Positions 20,261 to 25,620 of a stretch of 64,000 nt of DNA are shown here, piece by piece. Where the stretch lies: the NCBI GenBank assembly GCA_013314775.1, contig JABUFB010000008.1:558001-622000 (forward strand). The letters are read 5' to 3'. Made by a program: the position numbers and the translations under genes. Under the pieces are notes generated by a model, which ran no database searches, had not been told where the DNA came from, and worked only from the letters and a program-made list of their open reading frames with translations. Every line of letters begins with the position of its first letter. The first letter of the stretch is position 1. The stretch is from Armatimonadota bacterium (lineage in GTDB: Bacteria > Armatimonadota > Zipacnadia > Zipacnadales > JABUFB01).

Positions 20261-20327
20261 CTTAACCAATGGCTTAATTCTCTCTTAACGACTGCTTCAG
20301 CCCTTCTTAACTGGGCCCATAGATACT
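20261..20327 (+). promoter_or_regulatory. PHO-box-like direct-repeat array and promoter of the porin-pst unit
   Basis: CTTAAC, CTTAAT, CTTAAC, CTTCAG and CTTAAC occur at 20261, 20273, 20284, 20295 and 20306, that is at 12, 11, 11 and 11 bp spacing. Tandem hexamers on one helical face, ending about 10 bp upstream of a -10-like GATACT (20322-20327), are how PhoB/PhoP response regulators replace a -35 element. The downstream genes are a phosphate porin and pstSCAB, as expected for such control. The leader to the porin ATG is about 110 nt. The regulator itself is not in the window. Confidence 0.65.
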
Positions 20328-20439: not shown

Positions 20440-21705
20440 ATGAGGACCGCAGTATTGCTGTTCGCCGTCGTCGCCGTGGCCGCACTGTGCACGGTGTCCT
20501 GGGCGGGAGAGCCCACGCCGTCGCCGGATCGCGCGTACGTCGATGCCGTGATCGATGCCATGGTGGCGTCGGGCCTTATCTCCGCGGAGAAGGCCGCGGA
20601 GTTCAAGGCACAGGGTATGAAGGCTGCAGCCGCCGTGGCCGATGAGCTTGCCGCTGCCGCCGCCGCAAAGCCGAAGAAGAAGCAGTGGTACGACACCATC
20701 AAGCTGGGCGGCTATATACAGGCTCGCGGTCTGTACTATCCGGATGCTGAAGAGAAAGAAGTCGATCTCGCGTCCGTCTCGCTCAAGAAGGACAGCGAAT
20801 TCCTGGTTCGGCGCGCTCGGATCAAGCTTTCCGCCAAGCCGGCTGACGGCGTCGAAGTGGTCATCCAGCCGGACTTTGGCGAGGGCGACGTCACCATCAA
20901 GGATGCCTACGTGGACAAGAAGTTCGGCAACGAGATGACATCCATGATTCGCTTCGGCCAGCACAAGGTCCCCTTCGGTTTCGAGGGCCCGCAGTCGAGT
21001 TCATCCCGCCTGCCGCTGGAACGCAACTGGGTTGCTCGCCGGACCATCGCGGGCGAGCGCGACACGGGTATCGCCTACTACTACACCGATCCAGAGGATG
21101 CCAAGCTGTTCAACCTTGCGAAGAATGAGCATTTCGGCACCGGTGACTTCGGCAACATCGCAGTGGCCTTCTTCAACGGCCAGGGCATCGAGGACGGCGC
21201 CGAGCTCAATAGCGACAAGCACATCGTCCTGCGCGGCTGCAAGCCCATGCTCATCAAGGGCTTCAACTCTGACAGCGAAGAGCCTGACCAGTACCTGGAG
21301 TTTGGCGCCAGCTACTATGCCGGGGATTACGTCTCCAAGGGTCTTGGCCAGGAAGTCAGTGAGGACTTGATCGGTATCCACGGTTACCTGGCCCCGCAGC
21401 CTTTCGGCCTGCAGGCTGAGTATTTCACCGGCGAGACCGAAGGCGCTGACATCGACGGCTTCTACGTCATGGCCCTGTACCGCCCGGAAGACGGTGATGG
21501 CACTTTCTACGCCCGCTACGATGAGCTCGACGGCCGCCGCAAAGGCCGCGGCGCCAAGGACTACACCCGCGACCGGTGGACCATCGGCTACGCTCACGAG
21601 CTTGAGGACGGCAAGAACCGCGTGACGGTGGAGTACTCCGAGGACACACCCGAGGGTGGCGACAGCTGGGGCGAGTTCGGCATCCAACTCATGACCCATT
21701 ACTGA
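20440..21705 (+). CDS. Phosphate-selective porin (OprO/OprP family)
   Basis: A 421-residue outer-membrane beta-barrel. Residues 1-22 form a signal peptide ending at WAG. An Ala/Lys-rich helical linker to about residue 82 may be a periplasmic coiled coil. The barrel then begins with KLGGYIQARG and continues with alternating amphipathic strands. RRARIKLSA, MIRFGQHKVPFG and the ...RDTGIAYYY strands are typical of phosphate-selective porin O and P. AGGAGG precedes the ATG. It is the first gene under the PHO-box promoter and is followed by pstS, so its role in phosphate or polyphosphate uptake across the outer membrane is well supported by context. It also shows that the host is diderm. Confidence 0.88.
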   Translation: MRTAVLLFAVVAVAALCTVSWAGEPTPSPDRAYVDAVIDAMVASGLISAEKAAEFKAQGMKAAAAVADELAAAAAAKPKKKQWYDTIKLGGYIQARGLYYPDAEEKEVDLASVSLKKDSEFLVRRARIKLSAKPADGVEVVIQPDFGEGDVTIKDAYVDKKFGNEMTSMIRFGQHKVPFGFEGPQSSSSRLPLERNWVARRTIAGERDTGIAYYYTDPEDAKLFNLAKNEHFGTGDFGNIAVAFFNGQGIEDGAELNSDKHIVLRGCKPMLIKGFNSDSEEPDQYLEFGASYYAGDYVSKGLGQEVSEDLIGIHGYLAPQPFGLQAEYFTGETEGADIDGFYVMALYRPEDGDGTFYARYDELDGRRKGRGAKDYTRDRWTIGYAHELEDGKNRVTVEYSEDTPEGGDSWGEFGIQLMTHY

Positions 21706-21805: not shown

Positions 21806-22822
21806 ATGCGCAGTGCAAGCAAGTCTCTCGTGACGATGATGCTGTGCGCGGTGTTCGCGATCAGCACCATGGCCGCTTCCGCGGCGACCCTGAACGGCAG
21901 CGGCGCGAGCTTCCCGTTCCCGTATTACACGAAGACCTTTGCAGAGTTCAAGAACCGCACGGGTATTCAAGTCAACTACCAGGCCACCGGCAGCGGGGCC
22001 GGAATCGACGCGATTACCAAGAAGACTGTGGACTTCGCCGGCAGTGACGCTGCGCTGTCCGACGCGAAGCTCAAGTCCCTCCCCGGCAAGCTCTTCCAGA
22101 TCCCGACCTGCGGCGGCGCGGTCGCCATCGTCTACAATGTGCCCGGCGCCTCCCGCGACCTCAAGCTCAGCGCCAGCAGCGTGGCCGGCATTTTCCTGGG
22201 TCAGATCAAGCGATGGAACGATCCCAAGCTGGTTGCCGAAAATGCCGAACTGCGCAACAAGAACCTTCCGATCACCGTCTGCCACCGCAGCGACGGCAGC
22301 GGAACCACCGACATCTTCACCACCTATCTGTGCGCGATAAGCCCGACGTGGAAGTCCAAGGTCGGCAAGGGTACCGCAGTCAAGTGGCCCACCGGCAAGG
22401 GTGGCGCAAAGAATGCGGGAGTCGCCGCTCTGGTGAAGCAGATCCCCGGTGCGATCGGCTATGTCGAGCTTGCCTATGCAAAGCAGAACAACATTGCTAC
22501 CGCACGCGTGAAGAACCGCAGCGGCTACTACATCAAGCCCTCACTTTCCAGCACCAGCGCCTGCATTGAGGGTGCTCTGAGCGTGCTCAAGAACGACCTG
22601 CGCGCTGACATCGTCAACTCTCCCGGCCGCGATGCTTACCCGATCGTTGGCCTGACCTTCATCTTCGTCTACGAGAACTCCGCCCAGCCTGCGGAACTCA
22701 AGCGCCTATTGGGCTGGCTCATGTCCGACGAGTCGATGGCCATCGCAAAGAGCCTTGAGTATGCTCCGCTACCCAATTCCGTGCGCGCCATCTGCAAGGA
22801 AATGATCGCGAAGCTGAAGTAG
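21806..22822 (+). CDS. pstS: Phosphate ABC transporter substrate-binding protein PstS
   Basis: A 338-residue periplasmic binding protein with a signal peptide of about 26 residues ending ASA. The phosphate-binding loops are present: NGSGASFPFP at the mature N-terminus, ATGSGAGIDA, FAGSDAALSD and HRSDGSGTTDIFT. GGAGGATAG precedes the ATG. There is no lipobox, so the protein is soluble in the periplasm, consistent with an outer membrane. It lies 100 bp after the porin and 113 bp before pstC, with hairpins in both gaps, which would allow PstS to be made in excess over the membrane subunits. Confidence 0.96.
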   Translation: MRSASKSLVTMMLCAVFAISTMAASAATLNGSGASFPFPYYTKTFAEFKNRTGIQVNYQATGSGAGIDAITKKTVDFAGSDAALSDAKLKSLPGKLFQIPTCGGAVAIVYNVPGASRDLKLSASSVAGIFLGQIKRWNDPKLVAENAELRNKNLPITVCHRSDGSGTTDIFTTYLCAISPTWKSKVGKGTAVKWPTGKGGAKNAGVAALVKQIPGAIGYVELAYAKQNNIATARVKNRSGYYIKPSLSSTSACIEGALSVLKNDLRADIVNSPGRDAYPIVGLTFIFVYENSAQPAELKRLLGWLMSDESMAIAKSLEYAPLPNSVRAICKEMIAKLK

Positions 22823-22935: not shown

Positions 22936-23892
22936 ATGGCTGCTGAAATCGCACCCGGAGCACGCCCAGAGGCTAGCCTATGCATCAGCGACCGGGCATT
23001 CAACGCCATCTTGTATGGCGCCAGTGGTGTTGTGCTCGCGCTTGTCGTCACTCTCGGGTACACGCTCGCGAAGAACTCGGCCGCGTCTTTAGATCACTTT
23101 GGACTTCGGTTCCTAATCAGTAGTGACTGGGACCCTGTGCATGAGCAATTTGGTGCACTCCCCTTCATCTGGGGCACGCTCGTAACGTCCTTCATCGCTC
23201 TTCTACTTGCGGTGCCTGTGGGCATCGGAACTGCCATCTTCCTCGCAGAACTCGCCCCAACGGCTATCTCACGCCCTGTGTCTTTCCTGGTGGAGTTGCT
23301 CGCAGCAGTTCCCAGCGTCATCTTCGGACTGTGGGGTATCTTCGTCGCTGCGCCGATCATCCAGAGGTTCGAGCTGTTCGTTGGGGAGCGCTGGGGCCAC
23401 ATCCCGCTTTTCTCGGGCCCCCCCATGGGCATCGGGGTGCTGGCAGCTGGGATCATCCTCGCGGTGATGGTGTTGCCCTTCGTCGCGTCTATCTCCACAG
23501 ACGCGATACGAGCCGTCCCCCGCGCCCAGTCCGAAGCGGGGCTCGCTCTGGGAACCACACACTGGGAGACCCTCCGCGGACCGGTGCTACGCTATGCAAA
23601 GAAGGGCATCCTTGGCGCTGTCATCCTCGCCCTGGGGCGCGCGCTTGGCGAGACAATGGCCGTCACCATGCTCATCGGCAATACTCCGACCATCTCCATT
23701 TCCCTTTTCGAGTCCGGCTACTCCATGGCGTCGGTCATTGCCAATGAATTCGCCGAAGCCATGGGCAAACTGCACGCCGCGGCCATGTCAGAGATCGCGC
23801 TGCTGCTGCTCCTGCTCACCGTCGCGGTGAATGCCATTGCGCGGCTGCTGATCTGGGGAAGCACCGGGATGCAGGGAGGCGACAGACGATGA
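22936..23892 (+). CDS. pstC: Phosphate ABC transporter permease PstC
   Basis: A 318-residue inner-membrane permease with about six hydrophobic segments, the first near residues 28-50. The cytoplasmic EAA-type loop is readable as AVPRAQSEAGLALGTTHWET, the site that contacts the ATPase. PSVIFGLWGIFV is a PstC family signature. GTGAGGAG precedes the ATG. Its TGA overlaps the pstA ATG by 4 bp. It forms the channel with PstA for high-affinity phosphate import. Confidence 0.96.
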   Translation: MAAEIAPGARPEASLCISDRAFNAILYGASGVVLALVVTLGYTLAKNSAASLDHFGLRFLISSDWDPVHEQFGALPFIWGTLVTSFIALLLAVPVGIGTAIFLAELAPTAISRPVSFLVELLAAVPSVIFGLWGIFVAAPIIQRFELFVGERWGHIPLFSGPPMGIGVLAAGIILAVMVLPFVASISTDAIRAVPRAQSEAGLALGTTHWETLRGPVLRYAKKGILGAVILALGRALGETMAVTMLIGNTPTISISLFESGYSMASVIANEFAEAMGKLHAAAMSEIALLLLLLTVAVNAIARLLIWGSTGMQGGDRR

Positions 23893-24740
23893 CCTGGGAT
23901 CGGCAGAGCTATCGGCGGCTCAAGAATGCCTTCGCGTTGACTGTCTGCACGCTCATGGCTGTCGCTGCCGTGCTGCCACTGTTCGCCGTCCTGTTCCATG
24001 TGGCACGACTGGGCATCACCCATATCGACCTGGATTTCTTCACGAAACTGCCTGCTCCTGTGGGCGAGGAAGGCGGCGGGCTTGCGAACGCCGTGGTTGG
24101 GACACTGGTGCTCGTGGGGCTTGCTTCCTGCATCGGTGTCCCGGTGGGCGTGCTGGCGGGTGTGCTCCTTGCCCGAGCCAGCGGTTGGCGCTGGTCATTC
24201 TGGGTGCGCTACGCGGCGGACGTGCTCAGCGGAGTGCCGTCGATCGTGGTCGGCGTCGTCGTGTATGAACTCGTGGTGGTCAAAGCGCAGACCTTCAGCG
24301 CCTATAGCGGCGGGATCGCTCTGGCGATGATCATGATCCCCACAGTGGTGCGCACTACCGAAGAGATGATCCGCATGGTCCCATACACGCTCTATGAGGC
24401 AGCGCTGGCGCTCGGGGTGCCCGAATGGCGGGCCACAGTTGCTGTCCTCGTGCGTGGCGCCAGCGCCGGGATCATCACGGGGATCATGCTGGCCGCGGCG
24501 CGAGTCGCCGGAGAGACTGCCCCCCTGCTGTTCACCGCATTCAACAACAACTACTGGTCGAAAAGCCTGTCAGAGCCCATCGCGTCGCTGCCCCTGGCCA
24601 TCTACAACTATGCCCTGTCGCCCTATGAGACCTGGCACGCCATGGCCTGGGCCGCGTCACTCGTCCTGGTAAGCCTAGTGCTTGGCATGAGCATCCTTAC
24701 CCGTGTCGTCACGCGTGGGAAGTACGAGATCATCCAGTAG
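23889..24740 (+). CDS. pstA: Phosphate ABC transporter permease PstA
   Basis: A 283-residue inner-membrane permease with about six hydrophobic segments. [16 protein letters not shown] parallels the PstA channel motif, and [18 protein letters not shown] is its EAA loop. It begins within the pstC stop (ATGA), so the two permease subunits are translationally coupled. It ends 10 bp before pstB. Length and order pstS-pstC-pstA-pstB are standard. Confidence 0.96.
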
Positions 24741-24750
24741 TGGAGGGACT

Positions 24751-25620
<870 letters not shown>

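Follow-up and report, generated by a model that had tools for sequence, protein, structure and literature searches.

A five-unit CTTAAY repeat array upstream of a porin-pstSCAB operon in Armatimonadota as a probable PHO box, with a putative link to prepilin-like DUF1559 genes

Direct repeats at helical spacing are found in front of a phosphate-selective porin gene and a pstSCAB cluster in a bacterium of the phylum Armatimonadota, and the question raised by this locus is whether they are the operator of a Pho regulon. The window, which is the whole 64-kb stretch analysed (C8:558001-622000 of a host genome of 6.1 Mb that is 98% complete), carries on its forward strand the hexamers CTTAAC (unit 1, 20261-20266), CTTAAT (unit 2, 20273-20278), CTTAAC (unit 3, 20284-20289), the degenerate CTTCAG (unit 4, 20295-20300) and the promoter-proximal CTTAAC (unit 5, 20306-20311). 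Agreement with CTTAAY is thus 6, 6, 6, 4 and 6 of 6, and the five units at 12/11/11/11-bp spacing described in the initial annotation are exact to the base, as is its -10-like hexamer GATACT (20322-20327), placed at about 10 bp and found exactly 10 bp past unit 5. GATACT itself does not conform to TANNNT. No -35-like hexamer was read 16-18 bp upstream of it, AGCCCT being the sequence at 17 bp. CTTAAY occurs four times on the forward strand of the window and never on the reverse strand, and all four occurrences lie within the array, which is also the only three-unit array in the window at up to three mismatches (expected 0.00 from 100 dinucleotide shuffles). The profile match that begins at unit 2 (C8:578273-578327, E 2.1e-5) is not independent, the focal site being one of the 16 sites from which the model was built, and the same holds for the other promoters in the model. 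No match to the focal promoter was found in the plasmid collection searched.

The genes behind the array, all on the forward strand, bear out its placement upstream of a phosphate porin and pstSCAB. The porin O/P gene (20440-21705; PF07396, 4.6e-16) is followed by pstS (21806-22822; TIGR00975, 330 bits, above cut-off), a pstC-type permease gene (22936-23892; PF00528, 6.7e-16, with a 37% match to the pstC2 region of a second pst operon), a pstA-type permease gene (23889-24740; PF00528, 4.3e-17) and pstB (24703-25620 as the longest open reading frame; TIGR00972, 363 bits, above cut-off), whose real start is probably the ATG at 24751. Curated cut-offs were passed by PhoU, PstB and PstS. Two PhoU domains are also encoded by another gene, a 371-aa open frame lying apart from the pst operons (G000:C24:7235-7798, reverse strand).

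Elsewhere in the host genome the three-unit CTTAAY pattern had 11 matches at up to three mismatches, against 4 for the reversed pattern, and strong arrays were found at three places only: the focal promoter, C8:81964 and C8:84637, the latter two on the reverse strand. The array at C8:81964 directly precedes pstS2-pstC2-pstA2-pstB2-phoU and starts on the phoR stop codon, the TAA lying inside its first CTTAAC (L012:7987-7992, reverse strand), while that at C8:84637 directly precedes phoB-phoR (about C8:82.0-84.6 kb) and is followed by its best -10 at a distance of 11 rather than 10 bp. The genome scan proposed with the initial annotation returned porin-pst, pstS2 and phoB as its best sites, and unrelated genes were not equally hit. 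One further match, at C1:209984, is not followed by a convincing gene start and was taken as chance. In the sister genome (G001) arrays are present at the same three places. At the porin promoter of the sister genome hardly any change has occurred in the array, unit 1 included, or in GATACT, although the flank is in large part variable.

The pattern is not confined to these two genomes. With up to two mismatches it was present in 27 of 61 genomes of relatives, in which reversed-pattern controls were rare, and in about 18 of the 61 an array of three to six units precedes pst or porin-pst genes. Numerous genera of the order have such arrays before pstS or porin-pstS, and beyond the order but within the phylum they precede pstS1 in two genomes (G049 and G052). 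The in-register promoters are strikingly uniform, usually with four units, a distance of 10 bp and a TATNNT-like -10; among 25 array promoters of the host and relatives, a set that includes some DUF1559 promoters, the gap between the final unit and TANNNT measures exactly 10 bp in 20 cases and 11 bp in 2. Arrays typically comprise four in-register units and reach six or more at other sites; the 12-bp-spaced fifth unit of the focal promoter is an extra one. In several of the 61 relatives the array was not found at the stringency used, and such absence is weak evidence because many of the assemblies are fragmentary. Conservation of the array ahead of pst and porin orthologs thus extends from the sister genome to many genera of the phylum.

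The focal repeat matches that of the Pho box of the cyanobacterial regulator SphR. In Synechocystis PCC 6803 this box consists of at least three direct repeats of consensus CTTAACCT, 8 bp with a 3-bp linker and hence an 11-bp period, close variants of which occur across the cyanobacteria, and it lies upstream of pst, sphX and phoA (PMC1906773), as the focal array lies upstream of pst. The SphR site listed for pstS2 (PMC1906773), CTTAATTCtatCTTAATTTcgaCTTAATCA, is nearly interchangeable with the focal array. Unlike the SphR box, Armatimonadota arrays usually have four in-register units, with five at the focal promoter, and only the hexamer is clearly conserved in them; the focal promoter also differs in driving a porin O/P gene and in belonging to another phylum. 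The E. coli PhoB Pho box shares the 11-bp direct repeats that end 10 bp before the -10 (PMC1906773), whereas its repeat is of the CTGTCAT type (PMC4415409). A survey of 80 loci that surround PhoB relatives, the Armatimonadetes genome contributing one of them, also found arrays of CTTAAY type at 11-bp steps in four loci of Chloroflexota/Dehalococcoidia (L070, L071, L074 and L075). These have from 4 to at least 6 units, some being longer than the focal array; a TAT-type -10 follows the array after about 10 bp in L071, L074 and L075, and long CTTAAC arrays of about six units (at least six in L074) lie near phoB at L074:7230-7310 and L075:10460-10520. A single literature search found no paper describing the Dehalococcoidia arrays. 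The published SphR box and the Dehalococcoidia arrays together make the focal array a probable further instance of a known operator type.

We consider the array to be a PHO-box operator through which the porin-pstSCAB promoter is activated in the manner of PhoB, with a probability of about 0.94, and infer the regulator, its binding and the response to phosphate from sequence. The 11-bp direct repeats, the -10 about 10 bp downstream without a -35, a context of phosphate-uptake and regulatory genes with few others, conservation in relatives and the fit of the repeat to the characterised SphR consensus are all features expected of a PHO box. The same reading in the initial annotation is supported, since neither a lack of conservation upstream of pst or porin orthologs nor an equal frequency of arrays at unrelated genes was found. 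Its further proposal of a PHO-box consensus for this lineage stands as to the PHO box, but not as to a restriction to the lineage, since the SphR box is published and Chloroflexota pho loci share the repeat. The CTTAAC form of the box is now seen in Cyanobacteria (published), Chloroflexota and Armatimonadota, and a usable PHO-box model is gained for a phylum that has seen few molecular studies.

The likeliest regulator of the array is the PhoB-like protein of the phoB-phoR operon. Its gene (L012:9774-10592, reverse strand) lies beside phoR, pstS2CAB and phoU, and the protein is 98% identical to that of an Armatimonadetes metagenome-assembled genome, its closest named relative. The DNA-binding domain matches that of E. 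coli PhoB in the DNA complex 1GXP (7e-12), and the best full-length PDB match is RegX3. At 221 bits the protein falls below the 296-bit cut-off of the NCBIfam PhoB equivalog TIGR02154, the PhoR protein is likewise below its NCBIfam equivalog cut-off, and the host genome encodes 12 OmpR-type regulator domains. The assignment as PhoB consequently draws on gene position and context.

These last observations leave some room for an operator of another OmpR/PhoB-family regulator, for example of WalR/YycF, MtrA or RpaB type, that also uses 11-bp repeats and has phosphate genes among its targets incidentally. The regulator next to pstS2 does score about equally for the YycF, MtrA and PhoB models, below every equivalog cut-off, and, as noted, the genome encodes 12 OmpR-type domains. 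However, the strongest arrays stand at phoB, which is the regulator's own gene, at pstS2 and at porin-pst, the repeat is that of the SphR/PhoB box, and PhoB loci in Dehalococcoidia have the same arrays, so that we regard another regulator as unlikely. A functionless chance repeat or simple-sequence artefact, which the degenerate fourth unit and the first step of 12 instead of 11 bp could bring to mind, is hardly credible: shuffles expect no such array, both irregularities are retained in the sister genome, where unit 4 is identical, and the promoter geometry is uniform across genera.

Direct observation covers the array with its geometry, the extent to which it is conserved and the genes it precedes, and the PHO-box reading would connect these as follows. 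Upon phosphate limitation a PhoB-type response regulator would bind the 11-bp direct repeats head-to-tail along one face of the helix and activate a promoter in which a -10 is not accompanied by a -35, thereby turning on porin-pstSCAB. The same regulator would act on its own phoBR operon and on pstS2CAB-phoU and, through weaker arrays, on prepilin-like DUF1559 genes. Five units would be compatible with two dimers and one additional site, although the number of bound monomers is something we infer.

The inclusion of DUF1559 genes in this scheme derives from the arrays that lie away from pst and porin genes, 10 of about 31 of which precede genes for DUF1559 (PF07596) proteins that have a prepilin N-terminus. 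Copies of DUF1559 number 36-117 per genome in the Armatimonadota examined, or some 1-2% of genes if about one gene per kilobase is assumed, and at a 2% share the chance of such a placement is about 3e-10. DUF1559 genes in 40 regions picked irrespective of arrays all had array-matrix scores below -7, against 12.5 to 52.8 for the linked ones. Three weaker arrays precede DUF1559 genes in the host. Those at C6:35969 (G000:C6:35969-36016, reverse strand) and C9:149534 (G000:C9:149534-149580, forward strand; kept at G001:C666:3265) have in-register -10-like hexamers and stand before other, unrelated members of the family, while the third, at C2:176863, belongs to the host copy of a distinct subfamily (G000:C2:176863-177867, or L014:3864-4874, forward strand). 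PHO-type arrays before genes of this subfamily, which encode proteins of about 300 aa, were also found at L218, L159, L157, L165, L176, L274, L287 and L293.

Six linked proteins (from G000 C2, G003, G004, G014, G016 and G045) form one supported clade (99/95), in which the other five share 53-77% identity with the host protein; beyond the N-terminus they are little related to other DUF1559 proteins. With a profile of the C-terminal part the subfamily was found in 78 of 251 Armatimonadota genomes. An array score of at least 10 was obtained upstream of 17 of the 28 members with upstream DNA and in 0 of 2,800 shuffles, in which 2-mers were moved as blocks rather than by exact dinucleotide shuffling. 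Because arrays had served to discover the DUF1559 link, a test is provided by the held-out members alone, and with the six discovery genomes excluded an array is present in 12 of 22. Subfamily genes lie beside phoB, phoR, pstS or porin genes in six genomes (G003, G004, G011, G014, G027 and G043), and in G004 and G014 the subfamily gene immediately precedes that of the porin, both genes having an array of their own. The host copy has a degenerate array (score 9.1), and the link to the Pho regulon is therefore weaker in the host than in its relatives. These associations make the subfamily a likely member of the Armatimonadota Pho regulon. No published statement linking DUF1559 to phosphate or Pho was found in the literature consulted on DUF1559, the Armatimonadetes Pho regulon and pseudopilins with PhoB.

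As to the protein itself, the prepilin-type N-terminal cleavage/methylation motif (GFxxxE) is present, with TIGR02532 above cut-off, and in a sequence search of the PDB only the N-terminal pilin segment matched, to pilins. An AlphaFold model from 28 sequences (pLDDT 92.6, against 33 with 6 sequences) shows a long helix at the N-terminus followed by a globular head. Foldseek gave no match below E 0.001 for this model against the PDB; the weak fold matches are all to pilins or pseudopilins, the best being PilA4 of Thermus (Z 4.7 over 115 residues), with PulG at 4.2. The model agrees with a pilin-like protein whose head is enlarged, but this does not imply a function. It is conceivable, at slightly less than even odds in our estimation, that the subfamily belongs to the core of the Pho regulon and forms or caps a pseudopilus or surface filament under phosphate starvation, aiding phosphatase secretion or phosphate capture near the outer-membrane porin. 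If true, a physiological trigger would be known for one branch of this large orphan family. DUF1559 is expanded in Planctomycetes, with 74 genes in Rhodopirellula baltica (PMC2754498), as well as in Armatimonadota. The family is annotated only as of unknown function or putative solute binding, and the PHO-box model, used as a probe, would tie its prepilin-like subfamily to phosphate starvation and give one branch a testable role.

Triplet repeats of TTTAAC/CTTAAT were also observed upstream of aquaporin-like MIP genes (L155:2940-2967, reverse strand; L036:1501-1528, forward strand) in two genera of one family. These arrays (in G046 and G060) have no in-register -10 and for this reason were not counted as clear PHO boxes; they are perhaps the operator of another regulator.
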